Positions 4,308 through 25,366 of a DNA stretch of 64,000 nucleotides are shown piece after piece. Position numbers and translations under genes: made by a program. Source of the DNA: Aromatoleum buckelii (GTDB taxonomy: Bacteria > Pseudomonadota > Gammaproteobacteria > Burkholderiales > Rhodocyclaceae); the NCBI RefSeq assembly GCF_012910785.2, contig NZ_WTVH02000010.1:124001-188000 (forward strand), read 5' to 3'. The notes beneath the pieces are model-generated. The model saw only the letters and a program-made list of their open reading frames with translations. It made no database searches and was not told where the DNA came from. Within the stretch, counting starts at the first letter, position 1, and each line of letters begins with the position of its first letter.

Positions 4308-5501
4308 TCAGCCGGCGACGATGCCCCGTTCGCGCAGCTGCGCGATCGCCTCGTCCGCGTAGCCCGCTTCGCGCAGCACCGCGCAGGTGTCCTCTCCGTA
4401 CTTCGCCGGAAACGCCAGTTCGCCGCTCGCGCCGGCGACGTCGACGGCCATCGGCTGCATGTGCACGAGCCGGCCGTCGGGGGTGCGCGTCGTCGTCAGA
4501 CGGCGGCGCACGGCTTCCATGTCGCGTACCGCGGGAATGTCGTGGATCGGCGCGTGCGGGATCGTCGCGTCGCGAAAATCCGCGGCGATCTCAGCTGTCG
4601 CAAAGCGCGCCGTCACTGCGGCCATGTCGCGATGAATCGCGTCGCGCTCCTTGTGGCGCCCTTCGTTCGTCGCCCGGATGCCGGCGGCGAGCGAGGCGAA
4701 CTTCGGGATCTCGGTGAGCCGGCGCCACTGCACATCGCTGCCGATCGCCATGTAGATGAAGCCGTCCGCGGTCGGGTAGACGTTGGTCGGGATGAACTTG
4801 CGGTGTGCGTTGCCGCAGCGCGTGATCTCCGCCGGCTGGCAGTCGAAGTCGAGCAGCGGCAGCGTCGTGATGAGCCACGACGCCGCGGCCTGCAGCATCG
4901 ACACGTCGATGCGGCTGCCTTTGCCCGTCTCGGCGCGTTCGAGCAGCGCGAGCATGACGTTGGCAAACACTTCGTCGCCCGCCTTGAGGTCGACGATCGG
5001 CACGCCGGCGAGCGTCGGCGGGCCGTCGGCGTCGCCGGTGAGCTCCATGTAGCCTGCCATCGCCTGCAGCACCGGGTCGTAGCCCGGCGCGTCCGGGTAG
5101 TCCGGGCCCATCGCCGAGATGCCCGCCCAGATCAGGTCGGGCTTCGTGCGGCTCAGCGTTTCGTAGTCGATGCCGAGCTGCTCGTAGCGGCGCGGCACGG
5201 TGTTGCAGCAGAACACGTCGACGTCGAGCTCGACGAGGAGGCGACGCAGCAGGAGCTGCCCGTCGGGCTCCTTCAGGTTGATCGCGATCGCCTCTTTGCC
5301 GACGTTCGGCGCGATGAAATACGTGCGCCGGTCGTCATCGACGACGTTCGCGCCGATGTAGCGGTTCGGGTCGCCGGGCAGGCCGCCACGGGAGGGCGTC
5401 GATTCGATGCGGATGACGCGCCAGCCGAGCTGGGCGAAGCGCAGCGTCGCGTACGGCATCGACAGCGCTTGCTCCATCGACAGGACGGTACGGCGCCTCA
5501 T
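4308..5501 (-). CDS. iaaL: Class III (CaiB/BaiF) CoA-transferase, probable (2-aminophenyl)succinyl-CoA transferase
   Basis: A 397-residue family III CoA-transferase. Family hallmarks are the N-terminal Rossmann half, the segment [20 protein letters not shown] and the catalytic aspartate in PIVDLKAG (Asp171, matching Asp169 of formyl-CoA transferase), then [12 protein letters not shown]. Such enzymes move CoA between carboxylic acids through an aspartyl-CoA anhydride intermediate. In Aromatoleum indoleacetate metabolism an enzyme of this family (IaaL) converts (2-aminophenyl)succinate and phenylsuccinate to CoA esters. It lies at the distal end of the operon with mutase and molybdenum hydroxylase genes, which is why I choose that role. 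Function is by context and family; specificity is not visible. Confidence 0.82.
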
Positions 5502-5558
5502 GCGGCACTCCGGCGGGTGCTTTCGGCAGGCAAGATCTGGAATATCAAGAGCTTCTCC

Positions 5559-5810
5559 TCACCCCCCCGCGATCGGGGGGGCCAAAATGACTTCGTCCTC
5601 GTCACGCACCGGATGGTTGCGATCGGCATAATGCGAATTGACCGAGACCAGCACTACGTCGATGTACTCGAAGGCGCGCTTGTAGCGTTCGCCCTGGCTC
5701 GGCAGCCAGTCGAGCAGCATGCCCACGGTTTTGATCTCGGGTGGCAGCACGATCTCTTCCGACTCGCGGCCCAGGCTGTCGCGCAGCCAGGCGTAGTACT
5801 TCAGCTTCAT
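5559..5810 (-). CDS. MoaD/ThiS-family sulfur carrier protein
   Basis: An 83-residue beta-grasp protein that starts MKLKYYAWLRDSLGRESEEI and ends DEVILAPPIAGG; the terminal Gly-Gly is the residue pair that is adenylated and thiocarboxylated in MoaD/ThiS proteins. It sits 6 bases after the large subunit of the molybdenum hydroxylase and before the CoA-transferase, on the same strand. The context suggests supply of sulfur for molybdopterin synthesis or maturation of that hydroxylase, but an alternative sulfur-carrier role is possible. No MoaE or MoeB gene is adjacent. Confidence 0.85.
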   Translation of the reverse strand: MKLKYYAWLRDSLGRESEEIVLPPEIKTVGMLLDWLPSQGERYKRAFEYIDVVLVSVNSHYADRNHPVRDEDEVILAPPIAGG

Positions 5811-5816
5811 GCGCGT

Positions 5817-8177
5817 TCACACCGCCAGCGCTTCCGAGGGCGTGGTTGCCTTGCCGGGCGCTGTCTGCATCCGTCGCTCGTGGATGGCGCGGGCGACCGT
5901 TTCCGGCGACATCGGCGGGTTGAAGATGCGCACGCCGGTCGCGTTGTAGAGCGCGTTGGCGATGGCCGGCGCGATCACGATGGTCGGCAGCTCGGAGATG
6001 CCCTTGGCGCCATACGGGCCTTCGGCGCAGTCGCTCTCGATGAAGTGCAGGTCGAGCGGCGGCATCTCCGGCGCGGTGATGAGCTTGTAGTCGCGGAAGG
6101 AGGCGTTCTTCAGCAGGCCGTGGTCGAGCAGCATGTTCTCGCTCAGCGCGTAGCCGAGGCCGATGGCCAGCCCGCCCTCGACTTGCCCCTCAAGGCCCAT
6201 GCGGTTGATGATGCGGCCGACGTCCTGGGCGACAGTGACCTTGTCCACCTTGATCTCGCCGGTCAGCGTGTCCACGGTGATCTCGGCGATATGCACAGCG
6301 TGGGAATAGGCGGCCGAGTGGTCGGACATGTGCTGGGCGCCCTCGGGCTCGCTCTTCGGCTCGTAGTAGTCGGTGACCATCACCAGCTCCGGCTCGGCCT
6401 GGAAGTGCATCTGGCGCAACAGGCGGTCGAGCTTGATGATCGGGGTGCCGCACTGGTCGCGCACGACCGAGCCGCCGCGCAGCTCCAGCGTCTCCGCCGG
6501 CTCGCCGAGCACTTTCTCGGCGGCCGCGAGGATCTGGGCCTTGGCCTTGCGCGCCGCGCGGCGCGTGCCGTTGCCGGCGATGAAGGTGGTGCGCGAGGCG
6601 TGCACGCCGACGTCCCAGGGTGCGATGTCAGAGTCGTTGTTGACGAGGGTCACGTGCTCGAGCGGCACGCCGAGCTCCTCGGAGACGATCAGGGTGATGA
6701 CCGCGTCGATGCCCTGGCCGATTTCCGAGGCGCCGGTGATGACCGTGACGCGGGCGTAGTCGTCCATCTTGAGGATGGTGCCGATACCGTCCGACTTGTG
6801 GATCTTGGCGCCGCCCGCGTTGTGAATCGACGAGGCGAGGCCGATGCCCTTCTTGTAGCGGCCGGGCGCGTCCTGCTGCGCCGCGTATTCCTTGCGCTTG
6901 CGGCTGTAGTCGCTGGCCTGGGCCGCGGTCTCGAGGCATTCGACGAGGGCGCATTCCCTGAGGAAGGATTTCTGCGGCGTGATCTCGCCGGACTTCTGCG
7001 AATTCTTGAGGTGGAACGCGAGCGGGTCCATGTCCACCATGTCGGCGAGCATGTCCATCTGCTGGGCGGTGGCGTAGGTGCACTGCACGTTCCCGTAGCC
7101 GCGGAAGGAGCCGGCGTAGGGGTTGTTGGTGTAGATCGCCTGGGCCTTGAAGTCGACCGCCGGCACGCGGTAGTGGCCCGAGACGGTGCGCATCATGATG
7201 ACCGGAATGGTCGGGCCCCAGGAAGTGTAGGCGCCGTTGTCGAGCAGCACGTCGGCGCTGCGGAAGGTCAGCGTGCCGTCGCGCGTGCAGCCGGTGCGCA
7301 TGTGGATGATCGCCGGCTGGCGCGTCGGCGAGGCCTTGAACTCCTCCTCGCGCGAGTAGATCACCTTGACCGGGCGGCCGGTCTTCCGGGCCAGCAGGGC
7401 GGCGATGGGCTCGTAGGGATAGACGTCGAGCTTGGAGCCGAAGGCGCCGCCGATCGGCGGCTGGATGACGCGGATGTCGCCGGGGTGGAGGCCGAGCGCC
7501 GGCGCCAGGTCCATCTTGTAGTTGTACGGGTACTGGGTCTGCGTCCAGATCGTCAGCTTGCCGTTGTGGTCGAAGTCGGCGATGGCGCAAGAGGTGCCCA
7601 TGCAGCAGTGGGTGACGTGGTGCGGGCGGAAGACGTTGTCGACGACGAAGTCGGACGCCGCCTCGGCCGCGGCGACGTCGCCGTGCTGGAAATCGAAGGC
7701 GAGGCTCTTGTTGCCGGGGAAGTTGTCGTGGATCAGCGGCGCGTCTTCGCGGGCGCCGTCCTCGGGCGTGAACACGCCCGGCAGGTCCTCGTACTCGACC
7801 TCGATGAGCGCGACGGCCTGGCGCGCGATGTCCTCGCTCTCGGCGGCGACGGCGGCGATCTCGTCATGCTCGCAGCGCACCTTGTCCTTGAGGGCGACGT
7901 TGTCGCGCACGAAGCCGAACTTGAGGCCGGTGGCGTCCTTGCCGGTGAGCACGGCGTGGACGCCGGGCAGCTGCTCCGCGGCGGACGTGTCGATGCGGAC
8001 GATCTTCGCGTGCGGCCGACCGGCGAACAGCACCTTGCCGATCAGCATCTGCGGCAGCACCATGTCGTTGATGTAGCGCGTCTTGCCGGTGGCCTTGTCG
8101 GGGGCGTCGGGCTTCTTGACGCGCGTGCCGATCAAGGTCTGCTTCGCCGTGGGTGTAGCGTTGGCGGTCTTTTCCAT
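5817..8177 (-). CDS. Molybdenum hydroxylase large (molybdopterin-binding) subunit, probable indoleacetate dehydrogenase
   Basis: A 786-residue xanthine-oxidase-family large subunit. It shows the aldehyde oxidase/xanthine dehydrogenase N-domain (ATGKTRYINDMVLPQMLIGK), the cofactor-contact segments GGAFGSKLDVYPYE and PYAGSFRGYGNVQ, and near the C-terminus EGPYGAKGISELP, whose Glu matches the catalytic glutamate of the family. The start at 8177 is preceded by GGAGTC at a good distance; a 25-residue longer reading would overlap the small subunit. With the two genes upstream it forms a complete FAD/Fe-S/Mo enzyme. In the iaa pathway such an enzyme hydroxylates indoleacetate at C2 with water, giving 2-oxoindole-3-acetate. 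Substrate assigned by operon context. Confidence 0.85.
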   Translation of the reverse strand: MEKTANATPTAKQTLIGTRVKKPDAPDKATGKTRYINDMVLPQMLIGKVLFAGRPHAKIVRIDTSAAEQLPGVHAVLTGKDATGLKFGFVRDNVALKDKVRCEHDEIAAVAAESEDIARQAVALIEVEYEDLPGVFTPEDGAREDAPLIHDNFPGNKSLAFDFQHGDVAAAEAASDFVVDNVFRPHHVTHCCMGTSCAIADFDHNGKLTIWTQTQYPYNYKMDLAPALGLHPGDIRVIQPPIGGAFGSKLDVYPYEPIAALLARKTGRPVKVIYSREEEFKASPTRQPAIIHMRTGCTRDGTLTFRSADVLLDNGAYTSWGPTIPVIMMRTVSGHYRVPAVDFKAQAIYTNNPYAGSFRGYGNVQCTYATAQQMDMLADMVDMDPLAFHLKNSQKSGEITPQKSFLRECALVECLETAAQASDYSRKRKEYAAQQDAPGRYKKGIGLASSIHNAGGAKIHKSDGIGTILKMDDYARVTVITGASEIGQGIDAVITLIVSEELGVPLEHVTLVNNDSDIAPWDVGVHASRTTFIAGNGTRRAARKAKAQILAAAEKVLGEPAETLELRGGSVVRDQCGTPIIKLDRLLRQMHFQAEPELVMVTDYYEPKSEPEGAQHMSDHSAAYSHAVHIAEITVDTLTGEIKVDKVTVAQDVGRIINRMGLEGQVEGGLAIGLGYALSENMLLDHGLLKNASFRDYKLITAPEMPPLDLHFIESDCAEGPYGAKGISELPTIVIAPAIANALYNATGVRIFNPPMSPETVARAIHERRMQTAPGKATTPSEALAV

Positions 8178-8196
8178 GATTTGACTCCGATCCGGG

Positions 8197-8694
8197 TTAC
8201 GGGTTGGCCCTGCCGCCGCACGTGTTCGTTGCGGCGACGGCGTCGACCGCATCCAGCACCTTGGTGTAACCGGTGCAGCGGCACAGATTGCCTTCGAGGC
8301 CCCGTTGCGCCTGTTCCCGTGTCAGCTCCGGGTTGTTGGCGAGCAGGTTGCGCGACTGCATGATCATGCCCGGCATGCAGAAGCCGCACTGCACCGCGCC
8401 GTGGTCGACGAAGGCCTGCTGCACCGGGTGCAGGCCCTCGGGCGTGCGCAGCCCCTCGATGGTCACGACCTCGCGTCCGTCACAATCGACGGCGTACATC
8501 AGGCAACTGTTGACGGTCTTGCCGTCGATCTCGATCGTACAGGCGCCGCACTCGCCTTCGCCGCAGGCGTACTTGGTGCCCGTCATGCCGAGCCTGTCGC
8601 GCAGCATCGCCAGCGTCTTCATCGTGGCCGGCACCTTCAGGCTGACCGGGCGGCCATTGAGCGAGAAGCGGATTTCAGTTTCCACGGACATCAT
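8197..8694 (-). CDS. Molybdenum hydroxylase small 2x[2Fe-2S] subunit
   Basis: About 165 residues. The plant-type ferredoxin half has CGEGECGAC followed by a further Cys (VNSCLMY); the second cluster domain has CGFCMPGMI and GNLCRCTGY. This is the complete eight-cysteine pattern of CoxS/HcrC-type subunits that pass electrons from the Mo centre to FAD. The start at 8694 has AGAGG six bases upstream and overlaps the end of the FAD-subunit gene by about 20 bases; an in-frame start at 8709 or 8691 cannot be excluded. Part of the indoleacetate-type operon. Confidence 0.9.
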   Translation of the reverse strand: MMSVETEIRFSLNGRPVSLKVPATMKTLAMLRDRLGMTGTKYACGEGECGACTIEIDGKTVNSCLMYAVDCDGREVVTIEGLRTPEGLHPVQQAFVDHGAVQCGFCMPGMIMQSRNLLANNPELTREQAQRGLEGNLCRCTGYTKVLDAVDAVAATNTCGGRANP

Positions 8695-9553
8695 CGAGTA
8701 CCTCTTCAACGAACACTTTCACGAGATGACTGCGGTACCAGGCGCTGGCACGCACGTCATCGATGGGTTTGGCATCCTCGGCCGCCGCGGCGACCGCCGC
8801 CGCGACGGTCGCCGCGTCGAGCGGCCGGCCTTCGAGCGCGGCTTCGACATGGCGGGCGCGCAACGGCGTCGGCGCCACCGACCCCATCGCGACGCGCACG
8901 TCACCCAGCCTGCCGTCGGCGACGCGCGCGCCGAGGGCCACCGAAACGGTGGAGATTTCGAGCGCCGGGCGCGGGCCGGATTTGCGGAAGCGGGCGACGA
9001 AGCCGGGTGCGGGCCGCGCGAACACGACCGCGGTCAGCAGCTCCTGCGCCAGCTTGACGGTCTTGCCCGGGCCGACGAAGAACTGCTCCAGCGGCACCCG
9101 GCGCGTGTGCGCGGCGCCGTCGCGCCAGCACGCGAGTTCGACCGCCGCGCCCAGCACCAGCAGCGGCGGGCTCATGTCGCCGGCCGGTGAGGCGTTGCAC
9201 AGGTTGCCGCCCAGCGAGGCCGCGTTGCGTATCTGTTCACTGGCAAAATGCTCGGCCGCCTCGACCAGCACCGGCGCGATCTTGGCCAGCGCGGCGCTGC
9301 GGCGGATCTCGGCCACGGTCGTCGTCGCGCCGATGCGGATCTCGCCGCCGTCGGCCGCGATGCCGCCCAGCCCCTCGACGCGGTTGATGTTGAGCAGCCG
9401 CGCCTTGTACTGGCGCGCGCCGGATTCGGTCTGCGGCGCGAGATCCGTGCCGCCGCACAATACCGTCGCCTCGCCGTCCGCCATGGCCTGCAACGCCTCG
9501 TCGAGGCGCCGGGGCGCCAGGTAGGTCGTGATAGCTTCAATGGTTTCGCTCAT
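8675..9553 (-). CDS. Molybdenum hydroxylase FAD-binding medium subunit
   Basis: A 292-residue CoxM/XdhB-type flavoprotein subunit. FAD contacts are seen in ATVLCGGTDLAP (residues about 29-40) and in the ASLGGNLCNASPAGDMSPPL loop; the C-terminal CO-dehydrogenase-flavoprotein domain follows. The length is that of ordinary CoxM subunits, so the extra [4Fe-4S] loop that lengthens the beta subunit of 4-hydroxybenzoyl-CoA reductase seems absent. This argues for a hydroxylase rather than a low-potential reductase. Gene order is FAD, Fe-S, Mo subunit, with overlap to the next gene. Confidence 0.88.
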   Translation of the reverse strand: MSETIEAITTYLAPRRLDEALQAMADGEATVLCGGTDLAPQTESGARQYKARLLNINRVEGLGGIAADGGEIRIGATTTVAEIRRSAALAKIAPVLVEAAEHFASEQIRNAASLGGNLCNASPAGDMSPPLLVLGAAVELACWRDGAAHTRRVPLEQFFVGPGKTVKLAQELLTAVVFARPAPGFVARFRKSGPRPALEISTVSVALGARVADGRLGDVRVAMGSVAPTPLRARHVEAALEGRPLDAATVAAAVAAAAEDAKPIDDVRASAWYRSHLVKVFVEEVLDDVRGN

Positions 9554-9579
9554 TTCTTTCCTCGACTTCCTCGGTGCTC

Positions 9580-11193
9580 TCAGAAGCGGATCGGTTCCTG
9601 GTAACGGCCGTAGACCTTCACCAGTTCCTTCGTGATTTCGCCGACGCTGGCGTAGGCCTTGACCGCCTCGACGATCGCCGGCATGACGTTGGCGCCGGCA
9701 CGGGCGGCTTCGCTGACGGCGGCGAGCGTGCGCGCGACGTGCGCGCTGTCGCGCTCGGCGCGCACCTTGTTCAGCCCGTCCACCTGCACGCGCGCGTCGT
9801 CCTCGTTGTACGGGTGGAACTCGACCGGATGCTCGTCCTCGTGCTCGTTGCGGTAGCGGTTGACGCCGACTTTCGGGAACTTGCCGGACTCGATGTCGCG
9901 TTGCATCTGGTACGCCTGCGCCGAGACTTTCGCCTGGATGATCCCTTCGGACACGAGCTTGACGATGCCGCCCTGCGCGTCGGTCTCGGCGATGATCTCC
10001 TCCATCTTGTCACGCATGCGGTTCGTCATCGTCTCGACGTAGTACGAGCCACCGAGCGGGTCGACCGTCTCGGTCATCCCCATCTCCTCGATGAGGATCT
10101 GCATCGTGCGCAGCGAGATGCGTGCCGAATACTCGGTCGGGATCGTGTAGGCCTCGTCGTACGAGCACAGCGCCATCGTCTGCGTGCCCGACAAGGCGCT
10201 GATCAGCGCGTAGTATGCGCCGCGCACGATATTGAGTTCCGGCTGCTCGAACGTGAGCCCGCCGCCGCCGCCTGCCGCGATCATGCGCAGCCACATCGAG
10301 CCGGGTTTTTCGGCCTTGTACTCCTCCTTCATGATCTTCGCCCACAGGCTGCGGCCCGCGCGGAACTTGCACACCTGCTCGAACAGGTTGCCGAAGATGT
10401 TGAAGTTGTACGACAGCCGCCCGGCGAACTCGTCGACCGCCAGGCCGCGCGCGATGACTTCGTCGGCGTAGGCCTTCGCGATGCAGAACGCGTAGGCCAT
10501 CTCCTGCGCCGGCGTCGCGCCGGACTCGCGGATGTGGTAGCCGCACACCGACACCGGGCTGTACTTCGGTGCGTGCTCGGCGCAGTACTCGATCGTGTCG
10601 CCGACGAGCTTGATCGACGGCTCGACCGGGAAGATCCACGTACCGCGGCCGATGAACTCCTTGAGGATGTCGTTCTGCGCGGTGCCGCGCAGCTTCTTCA
10701 CGTCGTAGCCGCGTTTCTCGGCCATCGCGAGGTACATCGCGATCGCGATCGCCGCGGCGCCGTTGATCGTCATCGACACGGTGATCTTGTCGAGGTCGAT
10801 GCCGTCGAACGCGACCTCGAAGTCGCGCAGCGTGTCGATCGACATGCCGACGCGGCCGATTTCGCCGGCGGCGAGCGGGTCGTCCGAGTCGAGGCCGATC
10901 TGCGTCGGCAGGTCGAACGCGACGTTCAGGCCGGTCTGGCCGTTCGCGATCAGGTACTTGAAGCGCTGGTTCGTGTCATGCGGATTGCCGAAGCCGGCGT
11001 ACTGGCGCATCGTCCAGGGCTGCTTGCGGTACATCTCGCGGTGGATGCCGCGCGTGAAAGGGTATTCGCCCGGCTCGCCGAGCATCGTCGTGCCGCCGCT
11101 CTCCTCGACGTCCGCCGCGGTGTAGAGCGGCTTGACTTCGAGCCCTGATTCGTTCGTGATGATTTTCAGCGTCGATTGCGCGCGATCGTTCAT
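9580..11193 (-). CDS. Coenzyme B12-dependent acyl-CoA mutase, large (substrate-binding) subunit, probable (2-aminophenyl)succinyl-CoA mutase
   Basis: A 537-residue methylmalonyl-CoA mutase alpha-domain protein without the B12 domain, which is encoded by the neighbouring gene. The barrel begins PFTRGIHREMYRKQPWTMRQ. At the two positions that set specificity in this family it has Tyr in TMRQY and Arg in EFIGRGTW, the pair used by methylmalonyl-CoA mutase (Tyr89/Arg207, P. shermanii numbering) to hold the free carboxylate of the substrate; isobutyryl- and 2-hydroxyisobutyryl-CoA mutases differ there. That fits an arylsuccinyl-CoA to arylmalonyl-CoA rearrangement as in the indoleacetate pathway. 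It overlaps the small-subunit gene by 4 bases. No G-protein chaperone (MeaB type) lies nearby. Confidence 0.85.
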   Translation of the reverse strand: MNDRAQSTLKIITNESGLEVKPLYTAADVEESGGTTMLGEPGEYPFTRGIHREMYRKQPWTMRQYAGFGNPHDTNQRFKYLIANGQTGLNVAFDLPTQIGLDSDDPLAAGEIGRVGMSIDTLRDFEVAFDGIDLDKITVSMTINGAAAIAIAMYLAMAEKRGYDVKKLRGTAQNDILKEFIGRGTWIFPVEPSIKLVGDTIEYCAEHAPKYSPVSVCGYHIRESGATPAQEMAYAFCIAKAYADEVIARGLAVDEFAGRLSYNFNIFGNLFEQVCKFRAGRSLWAKIMKEEYKAEKPGSMWLRMIAAGGGGGLTFEQPELNIVRGAYYALISALSGTQTMALCSYDEAYTIPTEYSARISLRTMQILIEEMGMTETVDPLGGSYYVETMTNRMRDKMEEIIAETDAQGGIVKLVSEGIIQAKVSAQAYQMQRDIESGKFPKVGVNRYRNEHEDEHPVEFHPYNEDDARVQVDGLNKVRAERDSAHVARTLAAVSEAARAGANVMPAIVEAVKAYASVGEITKELVKVYGRYQEPIRF

Positions 11194-11609
11194 GCGACGT
11201 GCTCCCGGACGTTCTCACGGATATAAGCGACGATCGCGTCGAGCTTCGAGCCGGTCGGGAAAATGCCCTTGAAGCCGAGTTCGCGCAGCGCGTCATGGTC
11301 CTGCGCCGGCAGGTTGCCGCCGATCAGCCACAGCTTGTCGTGCAGACCGTTCTCTTCGAGCAGCGGTTTCAGCTTGCGGCAGAACGGCAGGTGCGAGCCC
11401 GCCATGCTGGAGAGCGCGATGACGTCGACGTCCTCCTCGAGTGCGATTCGCCCGACCTGCTCGGGCGTCTGCCGCAGGCCCGTGTAAATCACTTCAAAGC
11501 CCGCGTCCATCATCGCGCGGGCGACGATCTTCGCGCCCTGGTCGTGGCCGTCGAGGCCGGGCTTCGCGAGCAGGACCTTGATCCTGCGTTGCTGTCCTGT
11601 GTCGTTCAT
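11190..11609 (-). CDS. Coenzyme B12-binding small subunit of acyl-CoA mutase
   Basis: A 139-residue cobalamin-binding Rossmann domain. It carries the base-off/His-on motif DxHxxG (LDGHDQG, residues about 19-25) and the later LSSMAG and IGGNLP segments that contact the nucleotide tail. The protein matches the C-terminal domain of methylmalonyl-CoA mutase and the small subunits of two-subunit mutases. It overlaps the dehydrogenase gene upstream and the large subunit downstream by 4 bases each, so translation is probably coupled to give balanced subunits. Confidence 0.92.
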   Translation of the reverse strand: MNDTGQQRRIKVLLAKPGLDGHDQGAKIVARAMMDAGFEVIYTGLRQTPEQVGRIALEEDVDVIALSSMAGSHLPFCRKLKPLLEENGLHDKLWLIGGNLPAQDHDALRELGFKGIFPTGSKLDAIVAYIRENVREHVA

Positions 11610-16556: not shown

Positions 16557-18088
16557 CAGGTCTGCTCCATGAACGTTTTCCGTGCGACCAGCCGGCGCAC
16601 GTCATCCTTCCTGACCTTGCCGAGCGCGGTGCGCGGCAGTTCGTCGAGGAACACCACCTCTTTCGGCAGCTTGTAGCGGGCGATGCGGCCTTCCAGCAGC
16701 TGCAGCACGTGCCCCGTGTCGAGCGTGCGGCCTTCGAGCGGCACGACGACGGCGACGACGACTTCGCCCCAGCGCTCGTCGGGCCGGCCGACGACCGCTA
16801 CTTCGGCGATGTTGGGCGATTCGCCGAGCAGGTTCTCGATCTCGGCGGGATAGATGTTCTCCCCGCCGGAGATGATCATTTCCTTCTTGCGCCCGTCGAC
16901 CCAGAGAAAGCCTTCGCTGTCCTGGTGGCCCATGTCCCCGGTACGAAACCACCCGTCCTGGAGCACTGCGGCAGTCGCCTGCGGGTCGTTCCAGTACGCG
17001 CTCATGACGTTCGGGCCGCGCACGAGGATTTCGCCGGTCGCGCCCGGCTTCACGTCGCGCCCGTCATCGCCGACGACGCGCAGGCTGCAGTGCGGCGCCG
17101 CACGACCGGCCGAACCGGCCTTGCGTTGCGCGTCTGCGGGCTTGACGTACGCGGCGATCGGGCAAGTCTCGGTCGAGCCGTAGATCTGTACGAGCGGCAC
17201 GCCGCGCCGGTGCACTTCGCGGATCAGTCGCTCGGGGACGATCGTCGAGCCGGTCGTGATCATGCGCAGGCTCGACAGGTCGGCACTCTCCCAGCGCGGG
17301 CGGGCGATCATCATTTCGAGTTGCGCCGGCACGAGCACGGTTAGCGTGATGCGTTCCTGCTCGATCGCGTCGAAAGTCGCGTCGGCGTCGAACTTCGGAT
17401 GCAGCACGACGGTGGCGCCAACGGAGAACGCCGGAGTCGTCTGGTTGTTGAGCCCGCCGACGTGAAACAGCGGCAGCGTCGTCAGGATGCGGTCGTCGGT
17501 GCTCAGCTCGTGCAGGTCGATGCTGTTCGCGGCGTTCCACCCCAGCGCGCCCTGCGACAGCAGCGCCCCTTTCGGCTTGCCGGTCGTGCCCGACGTGTAG
17601 CAGATCAGCAGCGGGGTCTGCGGCCCGACTTCCGGGTCGCGCGCCACTGCGTCACCGCTGCGCTCGAGCAGCGCGTCGTACGAAATCCAGCCTTGCGGCG
17701 GCGCATCGAACGCGACCAGCGTCACGTCCGCCAGCGCGTCGCGGAACGCGTCGATCTGCGCGACGAAGCGCGGCTCGACGAGCAGCACCGACGGCGGACA
17801 GTCCGCGAGCAATTGCCGGTGCTCCGGCCCGGCCAGGCGCCAGTTCAGCGGCATGAACAGCGCGCCGAGCCGCGCACAGGCGAACAGCGTCGCGAGCATC
17901 TCCGGGCTGTTGTAGCCGAGATATGCGACGCAGCTGCGATGCCTCACGCCGGACGCGTTGAGCGCCGACGCGAGCCGCTCGACCAGCGCGGCCAGCTGCG
18001 CGTACGACAGGTCGCGCTCCGGGAACCGGATTGCCGTCTTGCCGGGCACGAGCCCGGCGTGGCGGTCTATCCATTCGGACAGCTCCAT
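16556..18088 (-). CDS. iaaB: AMP-forming carboxylate-CoA ligase, probable indoleacetate-CoA ligase
   Basis: A 510-residue ANL-superfamily ligase. Motif A3 is YTSGTTGKPKGALLSQG, A5 is IYGSTETCPIA, A7/A8 run through WFRTGDMGHQDSEGFLWVDG, and the catalytic lysine is in PRTALGKVRK. The GGAGGAG five bases before the ATG at 18088 fixes the start. In A. aromaticum an indoleacetate-specific ligase (IaaB) is encoded in the iaa cluster although the main pathway starts from free indoleacetate; its ester may act as signal or side product. Placement between thiolase and HyuA-type genes matches that organisation as I recall it. Specificity is not readable from sequence. Confidence 0.8.
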   Translation of the reverse strand: MELSEWIDRHAGLVPGKTAIRFPERDLSYAQLAALVERLASALNASGVRHRSCVAYLGYNSPEMLATLFACARLGALFMPLNWRLAGPEHRQLLADCPPSVLLVEPRFVAQIDAFRDALADVTLVAFDAPPQGWISYDALLERSGDAVARDPEVGPQTPLLICYTSGTTGKPKGALLSQGALGWNAANSIDLHELSTDDRILTTLPLFHVGGLNNQTTPAFSVGATVVLHPKFDADATFDAIEQERITLTVLVPAQLEMMIARPRWESADLSSLRMITTGSTIVPERLIREVHRRGVPLVQIYGSTETCPIAAYVKPADAQRKAGSAGRAAPHCSLRVVGDDGRDVKPGATGEILVRGPNVMSAYWNDPQATAAVLQDGWFRTGDMGHQDSEGFLWVDGRKKEMIISGGENIYPAEIENLLGESPNIAEVAVVGRPDERWGEVVVAVVVPLEGRTLDTGHVLQLLEGRIARYKLPKEVVFLDELPRTALGKVRKDDVRRLVARKTFMEQT

Positions 18089-18118
18089 GCCCACTCCTCC
18101 TCCAGTTGTCTCGTCACG

Positions 18119-18189: not shown

Positions 18190-18232
18190 TCTCGTCGCTC
18201 CCCGTCGGGGGAGCTCGTGCAGCTTGCGTTGC

Positions 18233-19438
18233 CTATGCGTCACATACTTCGATCACCACCGCCATCGCCGTGTCGCCGGCCGCGCAGCCGGTGAAGAGGC
18301 CGAAGCCGCCGCCGCGCAGCGCGAGCTCCTCGATCAGCTCGATGATCGCGCGCGTGCCCATCGGCGCCTGCGGGTGGCCCCACACGAGCGAGCAGCCGTA
18401 GTTGTTCATCAAAGCGAGGTCGGCGCCGGTCTCGCGGGCGAAGACGATGTCGTTCACCGCGAACGGGTTGTGCGTCTTGATCGCGGCGAGGTCGGCGATG
18501 CTGCGTCCGGCCTGGTCGAGCGCGCGGCGCGCGGCCGGGATCATCGCTTCGGGCATGTACGCAAGCTCCGTCCGGGCGAGGCCGAAGCCGTGCAGGCGGA
18601 CTGCGATCTTCGGGTCCGCCGATAGCTCGCGCGCCTTGTCCGGCGTCGTGACGACGATCGCGGCGTTGCCGTCGGCCGGGTGCGTCTGCGCGCCGAACGT
18701 CACGCTGCCGCCGTCGATGACGGGCCGCAGCTTCGCGAGCCCCTCGGCCGTCGACCGGGACGTGCCTTCGTCGCCGTCGAGCGTCGCGGCCGTCTTGCGG
18801 AAGTCCGCGCTCGGCACCGCGAAAGGCAGCGTCATGAAGCGCCTGAGGAACGCCGAATCGTCGCGCAGCGCGTCGCCGTACTGCTGCTCGCGCCGCAACA
18901 CCAGTTCGTGTTGCTGTGCGGTCGTGACGTTGTGTTTCGACGCGACGTTCTCGGCGGTGGCGAGCATCGAATGGCCGCCGAGCGGGTCGCAGCCGAAGTT
19001 GTCCATGACCCAGTTTTCGGCGCTGCCGGTGCCGCCGGGAGCGCGCGGATTCGGGTAATAGAGGTGCGGTCCGTTCGACGTGCGGTCGCAGTTGATCGCG
19101 AGCGCGACGCTCGCCATGTCCGATTCGATTTCCTGCGCCGCCGCGAGCAGCGTGCGCACTCCGGTCGCACACGCCTGCATCATCGTCGGGCCGCCGGCGC
19201 GCGTTGCACCGATCATGCCGGTCAGCCACGGCAGGCCGTAGAACGCGTGCTGTTGCGGCACCGAGAAGCCGAGCACGCCGTAGTCGAACAGCGCGGGATC
19301 GATTGCGCGCCGGCCCAGCTCCTCGCGCGCGACGTGCGCTGCGAAGCGGACGCTGTGGAGATTTGCGAAGCTTCCCTGCCAGCGCGCGAACGGCGTGCTC
19401 CAGTAAGCGCCGTACGGAATTTCGGCCTTGTAGCTCAC
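18233..19438 (-). CDS. Thiolase (3-ketoacyl-CoA thiolase family)
   Basis: A 401-residue thiolase-fold enzyme. The acylated cysteine lies in MMQACATGVRT (about residue 89), the His region is NNYGCSLVWGHPQAPMG and the second catalytic Cys is in LFTGCAAGDTAM. The start is a GTG at 19438. The N-terminus is shorter than in common acetyl-CoA acetyltransferases and lacks the opening beta strand. In the presumed pathway it would cleave 2-aminobenzoylacetyl-CoA to 2-aminobenzoyl-CoA and acetyl-CoA. First structural gene after the GntR regulator; a 15-codon reading frame (MKSIRIIGTAKAVLS) ends over its start codon. Confidence 0.85.
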   Translation of the reverse strand: MSYKAEIPYGAYWSTPFARWQGSFANLHSVRFAAHVAREELGRRAIDPALFDYGVLGFSVPQQHAFYGLPWLTGMIGATRAGGPTMMQACATGVRTLLAAAQEIESDMASVALAINCDRTSNGPHLYYPNPRAPGGTGSAENWVMDNFGCDPLGGHSMLATAENVASKHNVTTAQQHELVLRREQQYGDALRDDSAFLRRFMTLPFAVPSADFRKTAATLDGDEGTSRSTAEGLAKLRPVIDGGSVTFGAQTHPADGNAAIVVTTPDKARELSADPKIAVRLHGFGLARTELAYMPEAMIPAARRALDQAGRSIADLAAIKTHNPFAVNDIVFARETGADLALMNNYGCSLVWGHPQAPMGTRAIIELIEELALRGGGFGLFTGCAAGDTAMAVVIEVCDA

Positions 19439-19561: not shown

Positions 19562-20245
19562 CTATCCGGCCGCGCTGTCGTCGAGGCCGACCGCGACGAT
19601 GAACGCGTGCTTGGCTTCCGACAGATGCTCGTGCATCGCCGCTGCCGCGGCATCGCCATCGCCGGCGGCGAGCGCTGCGGCGATGCGGCCGAGCCCGCGC
19701 AGCACGATCGTGCGGATCTGCGCGTCGCCGAGCGTCAGCGTGCGGATGCGCTGCATGTGGTCCGCGTACTGTTCGACGATGCGCACGAGGCGCGGATTGG
19801 GCACCAGCGCGAGCCACGCGGCGCGAAAGCTGATGTTGGCTTCGCGAAAAGCGTCGGCGTCGTTCGCCTCGTGCGCGCGCACCGCCGCGGCGAGCGCGTC
19901 GTCGATCGAGCGGCGCATCGCCGGCGATTGCGTGAAAGCGGCGATGCGGCGGATCGCCGCCGTTTCGACGAGAAAGCGGATCTCGTAGATGTCGTTGACG
20001 TCGTCGAGCGTCAGCGCCGGGACGACGAAACTGCGCCCGTCGGAGACCAGCAGGCCTTCGCTCGACAGGCGCCGCAACGCTTCGCGCACCGGGGTGCGCG
20101 ACACGCCGAGCTGCTCGGCGAGCTGGACTTCCTGCAGCGGCTGGCCGGCGACGATCATGCCGTTGCGCAGATGCGAGCGCAGTTTGTGATACACCTGCTC
20201 GCCGAGGGCAAGCGGACGTTCGACAGGTTTGAGTGACGGAACCAT
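19562..20245 (-). CDS. GntR-family (FadR/FCD subgroup) transcriptional regulator
   Basis: A 227-residue regulator. The winged HTH occupies residues about 12-75 (LGEQVYHKLRSHLRNGMIVA, then QLAEQLGVSRTPVREALRRL), followed by an all-helical FCD ligand domain with DVNDIYEIRFLVETAAIRR. It heads the minus-strand indoleacetate-type operon. A perfect TGTATACA-centred palindrome lies 48 bases upstream of its start, and a related site precedes the divergent operon at 21.6 kb, so it likely represses itself and both gene sets. The inducer is unknown; an acid or CoA ester of the pathway is the obvious guess. Confidence 0.88.
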   Translation of the reverse strand: MVPSLKPVERPLALGEQVYHKLRSHLRNGMIVAGQPLQEVQLAEQLGVSRTPVREALRRLSSEGLLVSDGRSFVVPALTLDDVNDIYEIRFLVETAAIRRIAAFTQSPAMRRSIDDALAAAVRAHEANDADAFREANISFRAAWLALVPNPRLVRIVEQYADHMQRIRTLTLGDAQIRTIVLRGLGRIAAALAAGDGDAAAAAMHEHLSEAKHAFIVAVGLDDSAAG

Positions 20246-20292
20246 GAGCAGAACCTTGCAGGGGCAAATGCGGGGCCGAAGGCCGATGAATG

Positions 20293-20310
20293 AATACTGT
20301 ATACAGTATT
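20293..20310. promoter_or_regulatory. Perfect 18-bp palindrome, candidate GntR operator
   Basis: AATACTGTATACAGTATT is a perfect palindrome in the gap between the divergent GntR and TetR-like genes. The TGTATACA core is typical of FCD-type GntR operators. A second copy of the ATACTGTATACA part is at 21518-21529. Confidence 0.75.
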
Positions 20311-20497
20311 TTTTTGCATGTAAAGGCGAGGAGACGGACGAACATCCGACACTGCAATCGTGGCGAAGGCGGAAGCGGGTAGCGGTTCGGCACGGCTCCC
20401 GACAGCGTTACATAGGAACTGCTGCGCGATTTGCTGCATCGGGCCGCGGCGCTCGTTATGATCCTGTCCCCATCCGACCTCCCATGCCCCGGTTTCG

Positions 20498-21421
20498 ATG
20501 ACTCAGCCCCCGACCGTTTCCGAACACAGCACTGCCCAGCCTTCCGCGGTCGAAGCCGAAATCCTGCGGCTGTCGCGCGATGAGCCGGCGCTCGGCCAAG
20601 CCGCGGTGGCAGAGCGGCTGCGCCAGGCCGGGCTGCCAATCTCGCCGTCCGGCGTGCGCTACATCTGGCAGAAGCATGGCCTGGAGACCGCGGTCAAGCG
20701 CCTGCGGGCGCTTGCCGGCAGTTCGCGCGAAGGACTGGCGGCCCTCACCGACACGCAGCGCGGGCTGCTCGAGCGCGGCGCGCTCACCGCACGGCTCGTC
20801 CGCAGCGCCTCGCCCGGAGCGGCCGCAGATGCCGTCGAAGAGCCGATCGACCGCCGCCAGGTGATCCTCAACGCGGCTGCCGAGCTGTTCGCGGAGCAGG
20901 GCTACGACCGCAGCTCGATCCGCGACATCGCGCGCAAGGTCGGGCTCTTGCCCGGCTCGGTCTATCACTATTTCGCATCGAAGGACGAGCTCTACCTGGC
21001 GGTGCACGGCGAAGGCTTCCGGCGCCTGACGGCAGCGGTCACGGCCGCGATCGGTGAAACCCGCGATCCGTGGGAACGCCTCATGCGGGCCTGCGAAGTC
21101 CATGTCGGCGGCATCGCGACCGGCTCTCCGGTCGACCGCGTGACCGGCCACAATCTCGCGATGATCCGCCACCACGGGTTGTTCGCGAAAATCCGCCCGG
21201 TGCGCGAAGCGTATGAAAACATCTACCGCGAACTCATCGACGCGCTGCCGCTCGCGCCCGGCACCGACCGCACGCTGCTGCGCCTGCTGCTGCTCAGCGC
21301 CATGAACTGGGTGTACATCTGGTATCGCGAAGGCCGGCGCTCGCCGAAGGAGATCGCCGACGCGATGGTCGACATGCTGCGCCACGGCGTCGAGCGGGCC
21401 CCGCGGCCGCACGACGCGTAG
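20498..21421 (+). CDS. TetR/AcrR-like regulator with additional N-terminal helix-turn-helix
   Basis: A 307-residue protein, about 100 residues longer than a usual TetR. The TetR DNA-binding domain is internal, residues about 116-170 (RRQVILNAAAELFAEQGYDR, then VGLLPGSVYHYFASKDELYL), followed by the helical ligand domain. The N-terminal 100 residues contain another HTH-like stretch (ALGQAAVAERLRQAGLPISP followed by GVRYIWQKHGL), similar to winged helices of transposase/integrase N-termini. TetR proteins of aromatic degraders often bind CoA esters. It is divergent from the GntR gene and upstream of the plus-strand pathway genes, so it probably helps regulate them. Confidence 0.82.
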   Translation: MTQPPTVSEHSTAQPSAVEAEILRLSRDEPALGQAAVAERLRQAGLPISPSGVRYIWQKHGLETAVKRLRALAGSSREGLAALTDTQRGLLERGALTARLVRSASPGAAADAVEEPIDRRQVILNAAAELFAEQGYDRSSIRDIARKVGLLPGSVYHYFASKDELYLAVHGEGFRRLTAAVTAAIGETRDPWERLMRACEVHVGGIATGSPVDRVTGHNLAMIRHHGLFAKIRPVREAYENIYRELIDALPLAPGTDRTLLRLLLLSAMNWVYIWYREGRRSPKEIADAMVDMLRHGVERAPRPHDA

Positions 21422-21517
21422 CCGTTTCGACCGGCCCCGCAGCCGCGCGCGAGCGGAGGCCGTTGCAGGGCGATCGCCACGATACATTGAAGTTGCGTTT
21501 TCGCGGAAGAGTACGGG

Positions 21518-21530
21518 ATACTGTATACAT
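21518..21530. promoter_or_regulatory. Second candidate GntR operator
   Basis: ATACTGTATACAT lies 70 bases before the hydroxyacyl-CoA dehydrogenase/hydratase gene. It shares the ATACTGTATACA core with the perfect palindrome at 20293, so the two operons are probably co-regulated by the GntR protein. Confidence 0.65.
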
Positions 21531-21599
21531 AAAAAACCGGGCGGCCTCTCATCGCCGCGATCCGGTCACGGACCCACTCGACACCAAAGGAACCCACGC

Positions 21600-23615
21600 A
21601 TGGCACTCCCGTTCGCCAATCCCTTGCTCGCGGGCTCGTCCCGCCCCATGCCGCGCGCGGTCGCCGTCATCGGGGCCGGCACGATCGGGCCGGATATCGG
21701 CTATTACCTCAAGAGCGCGCTGCCGGAGCTGAAGCTCACGCTCGTCGATGTCTCGCAGGCGGCGCTCGACCGCGCGCTGCAGCGCTTCCACGACTACGCG
21801 GCCAAAGCGGTCGCGAAGGGCAAGATGAGCGAAGCCGAAGCCCGAGCGGTGACCGCGAACCTCTCCGGCACGCTCGACTACGGCGACATCGCCGACGCCG
21901 ACTGGGTGCTCGAGGCGGCGACCGAGAACATCGCGCTGAAGCGCAGGATTTTCGCCGACGTCGAAGCGGTCGTGCGACCCGACGCGCTGATCACGTCGAA
22001 CACCAGTTCGCTGCCGGCCGCGCAGATTTTCGCCGAGCTGCGCCACCCCGACCGCGCCACCGTGACGCACTTCTTCGCCCCGGCGTGGAAGAACCCGGTC
22101 GTCGAAGTCGTGCGCTGGGAGAAAACCGACCCGGCAGTCGTCGAGTACCTGCGCTGGCTGTTCTGCAGCACCGGCAAAGTGCCGCTCGTCACCGACGACG
22201 TCGCGTGCTTCATGCTCGACCGGATTTTCGACAACTGGTGCAACGAGTCGGCGCTGCTGCTCGAGCGCGCGACTGCGGCCGAAATCGACACCGTCGCGGC
22301 CGAGTTCGTCCATGCCGGCCCGTTCTTCGTGCTGAACCTCGCGAACGGCAACCCGATCATCACCGAGACGAACACGCTGCAGGCCGAGATCGAAGGCCCG
22401 CACTACCGGCCCGCGCCGGTCTTCCGCTCGGTCGATCGCTGGCTCACGGTCGCCCCCGGCAAGTCGGTGCCGGTGTCGCCCGAAACGGCCGAGGCCGTGC
22501 GCGAGCGCCTGCTCGGCGTGCTGTTCTCACAGAGCGCGGACATCCTCGATCGCAACATCGGCGAACCGGCGGATCTGGATTTCGGCTGCCGCCAAGCGCT
22601 CGGATTCCGCAAGGGACCGCTCGATCTGATGCGCGACCTCGGAGATGACACGACCGGCCGCATCGTCGAACGCTTCTGCGCGGAGCGACCGGGAATGCCC
22701 GAGCCGCGACGCTCGTTTGCCGCGTACCAGGATTTCCTGCGACACGTGCTCGTCGATGATGTCGACGGCGTCAAGGTCATCACGCTGCGCCGCCCCGAAG
22801 CGATGAACGCGCTGCACGACGAGATGACGGACGAGATCCTGTCGGTGATCCGCCGGCACGAACACGACGCCGAAGTCACCGGTTTCGTCATCACCGGCTA
22901 CGGCAACCGCGCGTTCTGCGCCGGCGCCGACATCGGCCGCTTCCCGCGCCTGCTGGGCGACGCGGCGGGCGCCGCGCAGTACGCGCGCGACTGCTCGCGC
23001 CTCCTCGTGTATCTGGACAGCATGAAGAAGCCGGTCGTCGCGGCCTTGAACGGCATGGTGCTCGGCGGCGGCTTCGAACTGGCGATCCGCTGCCACGGCA
23101 TCGTCGCGCTGAAGGACGCGTGGATGCAGCTGCCCGAAGTCACGCTCGGCATCGTGCACGGCATCGGCGCGATGGTCGTGCCGTACCGGCGCTGGCCGCA
23201 GGCGTCGCGCGAGTTCAACGGCATGCTGCGCCGCGCCGAGCGCCTCAAGGCCGGGCGTGCGCTCGAACTCGGCGTTATCGACGAGCTCGCCGACGACTAT
23301 CCGGGGCTGGTGCGCGCCGCGGTCGCGCGGGTCCGTGCGCTGTCCGGCAAGGTGGCGGGGATTCCGAACGGGGCGATCGACATCGCGCCGCTCGACCGCA
23401 TCGAACCGAAAGCCGCGAACGGGCAGGTCCTGAGCGCCGAAGTCATCCGCCTGATGGAATCCGCGATCCACGAAGCGGCGTCCGCCCGCACGCTCGACGA
23501 GGCGCTGGAAGTCGGCTATCGCGCGTTCGGCGAGAGCGCCTGCACCCACGCCGCGCGCGAAGGCATCACCGCGTTCCAGGAAAAGCGCAAGCCGGACTTC
23601 ACGAAGACGCCGTAA
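21600..23615 (+). CDS. Bifunctional 3-hydroxyacyl-CoA dehydrogenase/enoyl-CoA hydratase
   Basis: A 671-residue fusion. The N-terminal half is an NAD-binding 3-hydroxyacyl-CoA dehydrogenase (VAVIGAGTIGPDIGYYL, residues about 20-36; catalytic His region VTHFFAPAWKNPVVEV). From about residue 380 an enoyl-CoA hydratase/crotonase domain follows, with AFCAGADIGRF, MVLGGGFELAI and QLPEVTLGIVHG carrying the two catalytic glutamates. The domain order is the reverse of FadB. It would hydrate 2-aminocinnamoyl-CoA and oxidise the hydroxy product, the two steps before the thiolase of the opposite operon. Preceded by a GntR-type operator. Confidence 0.9.
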   Translation: MALPFANPLLAGSSRPMPRAVAVIGAGTIGPDIGYYLKSALPELKLTLVDVSQAALDRALQRFHDYAAKAVAKGKMSEAEARAVTANLSGTLDYGDIADADWVLEAATENIALKRRIFADVEAVVRPDALITSNTSSLPAAQIFAELRHPDRATVTHFFAPAWKNPVVEVVRWEKTDPAVVEYLRWLFCSTGKVPLVTDDVACFMLDRIFDNWCNESALLLERATAAEIDTVAAEFVHAGPFFVLNLANGNPIITETNTLQAEIEGPHYRPAPVFRSVDRWLTVAPGKSVPVSPETAEAVRERLLGVLFSQSADILDRNIGEPADLDFGCRQALGFRKGPLDLMRDLGDDTTGRIVERFCAERPGMPEPRRSFAAYQDFLRHVLVDDVDGVKVITLRRPEAMNALHDEMTDEILSVIRRHEHDAEVTGFVITGYGNRAFCAGADIGRFPRLLGDAAGAAQYARDCSRLLVYLDSMKKPVVAALNGMVLGGGFELAIRCHGIVALKDAWMQLPEVTLGIVHGIGAMVVPYRRWPQASREFNGMLRRAERLKAGRALELGVIDELADDYPGLVRAAVARVRALSGKVAGIPNGAIDIAPLDRIEPKAANGQVLSAEVIRLMESAIHEAASARTLDEALEVGYRAFGESACTHAAREGITAFQEKRKPDFTKTP

Positions 23616-23737
23616 GACCAGGCCCGGATGTTTCGCCCGCCCCGCTCCTTTCGCGAGCGGAGGCGGGGAGTGCACGGCGACGTTTTGCGCCTTGTCCGAC
23701 GGCTTCCGCCACCCGTCGACTGATGCGAGGAGATGAC

Positions 23738-25366
23738 ATGACGGCTCACGTTGATACGTTCGCGCGCGACAATCTGCCCCCGGTCGCGCAGCAGCCCGAA
23801 TTCCTGTTCGACCTTCCATCGCTGCAGTTCCCGCCGCTTCTGAACTGCGCGACCGAGTTGCTGGACCGCTGGATCGAGCGGGGCCAAGGGGATCGGACCT
23901 GCCTGCGCGCGCCCGGCGGCAGCGACTGGACTTATGCCGATCTGCAACGGCACGCGAACCGCATCGCGCATGTGCTGGTTCGTGACCTCGGCGTCGTCCC
24001 CGGCAACCGGGTGCTGCTGCGCGGGCCGAACAACCCGATGATGGTCGCGTGCTGGTTCGCGGTCATGAAAGTCGGCGCCATCGCGGTGACGACGATGCCG
24101 CTGCTGCGGGCGAAGGAGCTCGGCCAAGTCATCGACAAGGCCCGTGTCACCCATGCGCTGTGCGAGTACGCGCTGCGCGCCGAACTCGAAGACGCTGCGC
24201 GCGCGCATCCGACGCTCGCGCAGCTGCGCTTTTTCAACGGCCCGTCCGGCACCGGCCTCGAAGCGGACATGGCGCACCATTCCGGGCAGTTCGACAACGT
24301 CGCCACTGCGGCCGACGACACCTGTCTTTTTGCCTTCACGTCGGGCACGACCGGTCAGCCGAAAGCGACGATGCATTTTCATCGTGACCTGCTCGCCAGC
24401 TGCGCGTGCTGGCCCGAACACGTGCTGAAAGCGCAGGCCGACGACGTGTTCATGGGCAGTCCGCCGCTGGCGTTCACCTTTGCGCTGGGCGGCCTGGTGT
24501 TGTTCCCGATGAGTGTCGGCGCCTCGACCGTCCTGCTCGAGCAGGCGTCGCCGCCGCAGCTGCTCGATGCGATCGGCGAGTTCGGCGCGACGGTTCTCTT
24601 CACCGCACCGACGTCGTATCGCGCGATGGCCGATGGCGCCCGCGAGCGGCGGCTCGGCGCGCCGCACGGCGGGCCGCTGAGGAAATGCGTGTCCGCCGGT
24701 GAAGTGCTGCCCGCGGCGACACGCGCGCTGTGGAAAGACGCCACCGGCATCGAGCTGATCGACGGCATCGGCGCGACCGAGATGTTCCACATCTTCATCT
24801 CGGCCGACGAAGCCCATGCGCGACCCGGCGCCACCGGCACCGTGGTGCCCGGCTACCGTGCCCGCATCGTCGATGAGGCCGGGCGGGAAGTGCCGCCCGG
24901 CACGCTCGGCCGTCTCGCGGTGAAAGGGCCGACCGGCTGCCGCTACCTCGACGATCCGCGGCAGGCCGACTACGTCAGGGACGGCTGGAACTACACCAGC
25001 GATGCCTACATCATGGATGCCGACGGGTACTTCCATTTCCAGTCGCGCGTCGACGACATGATCGTGTCGGCCGGCTACAACATCGGATCCCCGGAAGTGG
25101 AAGACGCGCTGCTGCAGCATCCGGCCGTCGCCGAGTGCGCGGTGATCGGCGTGCCGGATGCCGAGCGCGGGCAGATCGTCAAAGCCTATGTGGTCATCAG
25201 ACCCGGCCACGAAGCAGGTGCTGCGCTCGTCCGGGAACTGCAGGACTACGTCAAGCGCACGATCGCGCCGTACAAATATCCGCGTGCGGTCGAGTTCCTC
25301 GACCAGCTGCCGCGCACTGAAACCGGTAAGCTGCAGCGGTTCCGGCTGCGCAATCCCGCCCCCTGA
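23738..25366 (+). CDS. Benzoate/2-aminobenzoate-CoA ligase family enzyme
   Basis: A 542-residue AMP-forming ligase with GAGGAG before its ATG. Motifs: FTSGTTGQPKATMHFHRD, GIGATEMFHIFISADEA, YTSDAYIMDADGYFHFQSRV and catalytic lysine in PRTETGKLQRF. The aromatic pocket motifs GIGATEMFHIF are those of benzoate-CoA ligases, and the length and N-terminus (MTAHVDTFARDNLPP) recall 2-aminobenzoate-CoA ligase of A. evansii. Since 2-aminobenzoyl-CoA is the expected product of the neighbouring pathway, this enzyme could re-activate free 2-aminobenzoate. The exact substrate is an inference. Confidence 0.82.
   Translation: MTAHVDTFARDNLPPVAQQPEFLFDLPSLQFPPLLNCATELLDRWIERGQGDRTCLRAPGGSDWTYADLQRHANRIAHVLVRDLGVVPGNRVLLRGPNNPMMVACWFAVMKVGAIAVTTMPLLRAKELGQVIDKARVTHALCEYALRAELEDAARAHPTLAQLRFFNGPSGTGLEADMAHHSGQFDNVATAADDTCLFAFTSGTTGQPKATMHFHRDLLASCACWPEHVLKAQADDVFMGSPPLAFTFALGGLVLFPMSVGASTVLLEQASPPQLLDAIGEFGATVLFTAPTSYRAMADGARERRLGAPHGGPLRKCVSAGEVLPAATRALWKDATGIELIDGIGATEMFHIFISADEAHARPGATGTVVPGYRARIVDEAGREVPPGTLGRLAVKGPTGCRYLDDPRQADYVRDGWNYTSDAYIMDADGYFHFQSRVDDMIVSAGYNIGSPEVEDALLQHPAVAECAVIGVPDAERGQIVKAYVVIRPGHEAGAALVRELQDYVKRTIAPYKYPRAVEFLDQLPRTETGKLQRFRLRNPAP

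Follow-up and report, generated by a model that had tools for sequence, protein, structure and literature searches.

Gene content and layout of the iaa locus

The DNA analyzed here, referred to as the window, is a 64,000-nucleotide stretch in contig 2 of the 4.16 Mb genome of Aromatoleum buckelii, whose relatives in the same genus include A. aromaticum EbN1 and A. evansii. Positions 2947–23615 hold the full iaa locus, the gene set for anaerobic breakdown of indoleacetate (Table 1). Transcription runs leftward from 20245 through genes for a GntR regulator, a thiolase, a ligase, HyuA, HyuB, an acyl-CoA dehydrogenase, two mutase subunits, three molybdenum (Mo) hydroxylase subunits, a MoaD-like protein, a CoA-transferase, and a binding protein; it runs rightward from 20498 through genes for a TetR regulator and a dehydrogenase/hydratase fusion. 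Pfam gave a domain match for every gene type that a first-pass annotation of the sequence had named, all between 4308 and 23615, which confirms that observation. The limits set for the locus at the time, 4308 to 25366, fared less well: they omit the binding protein, and the right-hand limit lies within a benzoate-CoA-ligase-like gene for which the EbN1 region compared has no equivalent. DNA similarity to EbN1 ends at 23618. Codon-position guanine + cytosine (GC) content picked all named genes except the acyl-CoA dehydrogenase gene, which was passed over because the longest open reading frame (ORF), 11606–13417, runs into the next gene. The true start of the TetR regulator lies inside the ORF listed, and that of the Mo hydroxylase large subunit is probably near 8177. 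An Asp in the "vDlkaG" stretch of the CoA-transferase aligns with a solved family member, and we take this residue to be catalytic.

Table 1. Features of the iaa locus in the window, with percent identity to EbN1 proteins unless stated otherwise.
Feature	Position	Strand	Evidence
ATP-binding cassette (ABC)-type substrate-binding protein, iaaM-like	2947..4095	-	Peripla_BP_6; 97% to EbN1
Class III CoA-transferase, iaaL-like	4308..5501	-	CoA_transf_3 1.1e-66; 98% to EbN1
Exchanged module, approximate edges	5510..9600	-	EbN1 DNA identity falls from ~96% to ~65%, 100-column profile
MoaD/ThiS-like sulfur carrier, Gly-Gly end, type-2 module member	5559..5810	-	ThiS 2.6e-12
Mo hydroxylase large (Mo-binding) subunit, type 2	5817..8252	-	MoCoBD_1/2; 55% to EbN1; 97% to G007
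Mo hydroxylase 2Fe-2S subunit, type 2	8197..8709	-	Fer2_2 1.7e-31; 55% to EbN1
Mo hydroxylase flavin adenine dinucleotide (FAD) subunit, type 2	8675..9553	-	FAD_binding_5 3.2e-41; 53% to EbN1
B12 mutase large subunit (one of iaaG/H)	9580..11193	-	MM_CoA_mutase 8.8e-193; 98% to EbN1
B12-binding mutase subunit (other of iaaG/H)	11190..11609	-	B12-binding 1e-20; 99% to EbN1
Decarboxylating acyl-CoA dehydrogenase, iaaF	11606..12739	-	GGG motif; 97% to EbN1; alignment
HyuB-type lactamase subunit	12739..14463	-	Hydantoinase_B 9.7e-143; best NCBIfam caprolactamase beta, under cut-off
HyuA-type lactamase subunit	14430..16556	-	Hydantoinase_A; best NCBIfam caprolactamase alpha, under cut-off
AMP-forming CoA ligase, iaaB-like	16556..18094	-	AMP-binding; 95% to EbN1
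Thiolase	18233..19438	-	Thiolase_N/C; 98.5% to EbN1
GntR regulator (probably one of iaaQ/R)	19562..20245	-	GntR+FCD; 95% to EbN1
TetR regulator (probably other of iaaQ/R)	20498..21421	+	TetR_N at residues 123-169; 94.5% to EbN1
3-Hydroxyacyl-CoA dehydrogenase/enoyl-CoA hydratase fusion (probably iaaP; letter inferred)	21600..23615	+	3HCDH_N, 3HCDH, ECH_1; 97% to EbN1

The iaa operons of EbN1 (genome G005) and A. evansii KB740 (loci L027 and L030) have the same gene content and order as the window, in which the catabolic genes are all represented by orthologues arranged as in EbN1, and the 12 compared iaa genes other than those of the Mo hydroxylase encode proteins 94.5–99.3% identical to their EbN1 counterparts. 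G005 was assigned to EbN1 through a 6000-base stretch of its second contig that matches EbN1 plasmid NC_006823.1 at 100% identity. Since the gene order is seen again in dozens of named loci, chance is excluded for the gene set. Further support for the assignment comes from the acyl-CoA dehydrogenase, IaaF. Its C terminus reads LIGGGTSEILK plus a short tail, the GGG (LIGGGTSE) is invariant in 14 of 14 aligned rows, and both published iaaF primers match the window. According to the available passages of a paper from 2021 (hereafter, the 2021 paper), the position taken by YEG or a similar motif in most acyl-CoA dehydrogenases is occupied by GGG in members of IaaF. IaaF orthologues at 80% identity or more occur in 19 of the 101 genomes searched, the next matches being at 44–45%. 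Sequence identity to EbN1 and A. evansii KB740, the GGG motif, and the primer matches thus support identification of the window locus as iaa, in agreement with the first-pass annotation, which had proposed this comparison; what it called near-complete is in fact complete, although with a Mo hydroxylase that differs from that of EbN1.

The letters B, D, F, G/H, L, M, Q, and R are named in the published text that was accessible, and A, C, E, I, J, K, and P we infer for the window genes. In the Fig. 1 legend of the 2021 paper, IaaM is the uptake binding protein. Counted from the thiolase, the ligase is second and the CoA-transferase twelfth, which does fit the names IaaB and IaaL as had been suggested; the agreement is partly coincidence and requires the MoaD-like gene, which had gone uncounted. 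The twelfth place fits IaaL because this gene, for which the EbN1 locus has no equivalent, stands where the 2021 paper, in the part available, counts a truncated iaaD.

A divergent Mo hydroxylase module

The three Mo hydroxylase subunits of the window (5817–9553) are only 53–55% identical to those of EbN1, against more than 94% for the other compared iaa genes. They occupy the same slot and, as shown below, belong to a sister clade. The EbN1 operon also lacks the MoaD-like gene, and the benzoate-ligase-like gene that adjoins the fusion gene of the window is absent from the EbN1 region compared. Per 100 alignment columns, DNA identity between the window and EbN1 is 92–100% in the mutase down to about position 9660, about 48–78% (lower at gaps) from there to about 5530, and 91–99% in the CoA-transferase; the MoaD-like gene lies within the low-identity block. 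One relative, G007, has the window's module at 97%. Among 10 close pairs of loci, identity is 66–96% over the final 200 bases of the mutase and 38–63% over the initial 200 of the FAD subunit gene, and the edge on this side is sharp in nine pairs. The first 200 bases of the CoA-transferase are 78–94% identical in the eight pairs that include this gene. Two low identities calculated over whole genes, 36% (CoA-transferase, L098/L085) and 31% (large subunit, L096/L053), were put down to alignment or truncation.

The FAD, Fe-S, and Mo subunits plus the MoaD-like carrier thus form a module that takes the place of the EbN1 version as one block, flanked by the mutase genes on one side and the CoA-transferase gene on the other. 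The exchange most likely came about through recombination within these flanking genes, which are conserved. The locus is of a known kind, and the module exchange is the variant part. A foreign base composition was considered and discarded (GC of 0.677 for the module, 0.673 and 0.666 for its flanks), as was a plasmid origin: the large subunit was matched in 1228 PLSDB records, every one of them at less than 60% identity (best-ranked, 37.7%), and a PLSDB DNA search with the module gave 344 records, none covering 80% of it.

An exchanged hydroxylase could also mean a changed entry substrate, for example, another indole or a heteroaryl acetate, in which case the locus would no longer be strictly an indoleacetate locus. 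The window and EbN1 large subunits do differ at about 45% of positions, and about 20 residues inserted in the EbN1 type are missing from the window type (both compared with 1rm6). However, both types share the same nearest solved relative, the alpha chain of a CoA-ester enzyme, 4-hydroxybenzoyl-CoA reductase (1rm6; 378 and 421 bits, the next chains scoring 263 and 288). Moreover, the downstream enzymes are 94–99% identical to those of EbN1 and should therefore receive the same intermediates. We consider a change of substrate unlikely and infer that both types catalyze the same reaction. All three window subunits score far below the NCBIfam equivalog cut-offs for this reductase (576/994.55, 96.8/404.55, and 157.2/257.8 bits).

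Distribution of the two hydroxylase types

One scan of named genomes gave 285 related stretches, the best 80 of which, none of them from a strict anaerobe, were kept as named loci. The large subunit is absent from the stretch in 15 of these, of the EbN1 type (type 1) in 48, and of the window type (type 2) in 17. The MoaD-like gene follows in all 14 testable type-2 loci and in none of the 42 testable type-1 loci, three and six further loci, respectively, holding too little DNA to be judged. About one in four of the loci sampled here (17/65) could thus be misjudged by surveys that score iaa by the EbN1-type hydroxylase. At 1e-18, a MoaD-like match was seen among a draw of 369 genomes of the class only in the A. 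buckelii genome itself and in G573, and at 1e-200 the large subunit was matched in six of 399 genomes of the order, namely A. buckelii (100%) and G412 (84%), both type 2 by identity, and four genomes at 55–56%.

G053 carries the type-2 module at a contig start, and no IaaF orthologue was found in this genome (best match 43%), which is probably a gap. G573 has a relative of the module (66, 74, and 81%), which is accompanied by genes for a sodium symporter, an IaaB-like ligase (50%), and a MoaD-like protein (42%), and its large subunit branches next to type 2 (100/99, careful tree). In the 36 kb examined there, no other iaa orthologues were found; the matches to an acyl-CoA dehydrogenase, to another AMP ligase, and to hydratase/dehydrogenase pieces did not exceed 33% and are paralogues. 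The genome, which is 94% complete with 6% contamination, yielded no IaaF orthologue (best match 42%).

Single loci depart from the common layout. The CoA-transferase of L093 lies ahead of the type-2 hydroxylase genes, not behind them, so that gene order is not fixed. L066 has no ligase match and L084 no thiolase match, though the neighboring genes are present. A. evansii KB740 has two iaa clusters, each with an EbN1-type hydroxylase. In L094 and L101, HyuA and HyuB were matched neither between ligase and iaaF, their usual location, where a gap of 0.4–0.5 kb is found, nor elsewhere in the stretch; a replacement lactamase was sought there among ORFs only, with no domain search, and none was recognized. 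Ring opening of the lactam may, in these two loci, depend on a different enzyme or on genes located elsewhere.

Phylogeny of the module and of the operon core

The large-subunit tree, rooted with 16 other Mo hydroxylases on long branches and built after four short rows had been dropped, resolves two clades of 48 and 18 rows, each with 100% support in the Shimodaira–Hasegawa-like approximate likelihood ratio test (SH-aLRT); the types are reciprocally monophyletic. The module is inherited together, the type label changing only once on the tree of the FAD subunit and once on that of the Fe-S subunit. On a core tree of IaaF, mutase, and HyuB (58 rows, 42 of type 1 and 16 of type 2, with six duplicate stretches omitted), by contrast, the label changes 13 times (bootstrap range 13–13), 11 changes being forced by well-supported branches, and these numbers are the same in the quick and careful trees. 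Type 2 as one clade on the core tree is rejected by the approximately unbiased (AU) test (p-AU 2e-55). The individual trees of the GntR regulator, thiolase, ligase, HyuA, HyuB, IaaF, both mutase subunits, and the CoA-transferase require 10–17 changes. In the careful core tree, EbN1, G011, and A. anaerobium form a group with the window (97/80), and G007, the carrier of a near-identical module, falls outside it. Two clean type clades set against 13 changes on the core tree indicate that one redox module of an otherwise conserved operon has been exchanged in place repeatedly, mostly in Betaproteobacteria.

That the types are sister clades would suit an ancient duplicate pair scattered by differential loss. 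Both types occupy the same slot, though, between near-identical flanks with sharp edges, and while 20 of 101 genomes have a copy at 55% identity or more, none has both. We regard this explanation as very unlikely.

Several observations weigh against the overall interpretation. The 80 loci are only the best of 285 stretches, and 72 of the 80 titles indicate a metagenome-assembled genome. The careful large-subunit tree (35 rows, richer model) gave unstarred support of 85/94 for type 1 and 90/94 for type 2. Twelve rows with incomplete core genes had to be dropped from the core tree. Shuffled labels needed a mean of 14.2 changes, and 126–135 of 500 shuffles were as low as the observed value, so that this control shows only that labels are almost unclustered. 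The AU test does not reject a clade of G007 and the window (p-AU 0.69; constrained tree 20 log units above the quick tree) or one of the five Burkholderiaceae type-2 rows (p-AU 0.38), and some of the counted changes may therefore represent fewer events. Some neighbors cluster slightly with type (2, 7, 8, and 14 of 500 shuffles as low for mutase, ligase, thiolase, and HyuA, respectively), which means that flanking genes may sometimes be transferred with the module. Little can be concluded from the fusion gene (7 changes, 22 rows) or from the binding protein (2 changes, only 2 type-2 rows). On the mutase side, the pair L062/L041 has a weak edge (66% versus 60%), and the MoaD-like protein falls just under the cut-off of the equivalog model TIGR01682 for moaD (59.4 bits, cut-off 66.15). 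Taking all this into account, we assign a probability of roughly 0.8 to the interpretation that the window contains a working iaa operon whose hydroxylase step is served by a diverged type-2 module that has been repeatedly exchanged in place.

The MoaD-like gene

The MoaD-like protein has 83 residues and a C-terminal Gly-Gly, which is present in all 19 rows examined (17 distinct loci, two of them represented twice). It scores above the cut-off of the wider MoaD family TIGR01687 (51.2 bits, cut-off 49.5). No close copy was found in the EbN1 genome, which has only a 37% relative, located elsewhere than in the iaa locus, and relatives at 32–37% are present in six other genomes tested. We propose, by analogy with tungsten aldehyde oxidoreductases, that the protein could be a dedicated supplier of sulfur for the cofactor of the type-2 hydroxylase. 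The MoaD genes linked to those enzymes likewise lie beside one pterin-metal enzyme that they are thought to serve (PMC1779556; PMC6365974); unlike in that case, the partner in the window is a Mo hydroxylase of the xanthine dehydrogenase type. In the passages available, the first of these papers describes a possible mobile cluster, and the second reports two MoaD-like genes, aorD/aorE, in the tungsten enzyme operon of EbN1.

Dedicated cofactor supply is also our guess at the reason for the exchange. Tentatively, iaa operons may have two interchangeable Mo modules, one of them self-sufficient in sulfur carrier, and selection might switch between these, for example, with the supply of metal, sulfur, or oxygen, while the pathway is otherwise fixed. 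The two natural versions in the otherwise near-identical operons of the window and EbN1 offer a ready-made comparison that could reveal both the role of the MoaD-like partner and the driver of repeated one-module exchange. Among the top matches in the open-licence literature, as judged from titles and the openings of abstracts, we found no description of two hydroxylase types or of a MoaD gene in iaa loci.

Pathway and order of steps

Judged by gene content, the function of the locus in A. buckelii would comprise the following reactions. Indoleacetate would be taken up and converted by the ligase to indoleacetyl-CoA, the indole ring of which would be oxidized by the Mo hydroxylase, giving the 2-oxo compound. 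The ATP-dependent HyuAB lactamase would then open the ring to yield (2-aminophenyl)succinyl-CoA, which the CoA-transferase and B12 mutase would isomerize to (2-aminobenzyl)malonyl-CoA. Oxidative decarboxylation by IaaF would lead to 2-aminocinnamoyl-CoA, and β-oxidation of the latter to 2-aminobenzoyl-CoA and acetyl-CoA.

In the first-pass annotation, CoA was added after ring opening, so that hydroxylase and lactamase would act on free acids ahead of CoA activation, reportedly also the earlier published proposal, dating from 2012. This order does not agree with later work: the Fig. 1 legend of the 2021 paper has activation to indoleacetyl-CoA by IaaB at the start of the pathway, and a paper from 2017, in the part accessible, predicts 2-oxoindoleacetyl-CoA lactamases in the hydantoinase family. 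The unit of hydroxylase and IaaB-like ligase in G573, where the remaining operon genes are missing, is consistent with CoA activation as the initial step, and the free-acid order is accordingly improbable. The CoA-ester enzyme that is the nearest solved relative of both hydroxylase types fits a CoA-ester substrate without proving it. In the literature passages accessible to us, we found no characterization of the enzyme that oxidizes the indole ring in this pathway.

Elsewhere in the A. buckelii genome, narG and two copies of bzdO score over their cut-offs, which fits nitrate respiration and benzoyl-CoA reduction. The bzdO genes (G000:C4:731815-733104 and G000:C2:815051-816340) have almost equal scores and suggest two benzoyl-CoA reductase clusters. 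A search with TIGR02260 returned only relatives below cut-off in this genome, and the question of the benzoyl-CoA reductase was settled by the bzd type.

Neighboring genes

The fusion gene is adjoined at 23120–26633 by the benzoate-CoA-ligase-like gene (within 23120–25366) and a second binding protein. Neither gene was found in the EbN1 region compared, where only a 29% paralogue of this ligase was matched. In G007 the two genes occupy the same place; A. evansii L027 and L030 carry them on the opposite side of the locus. Beyond them, at 26751–29118, genes for KaiC and two KaiB-domain proteins adjoin the locus, in a non-cyanobacterial host.

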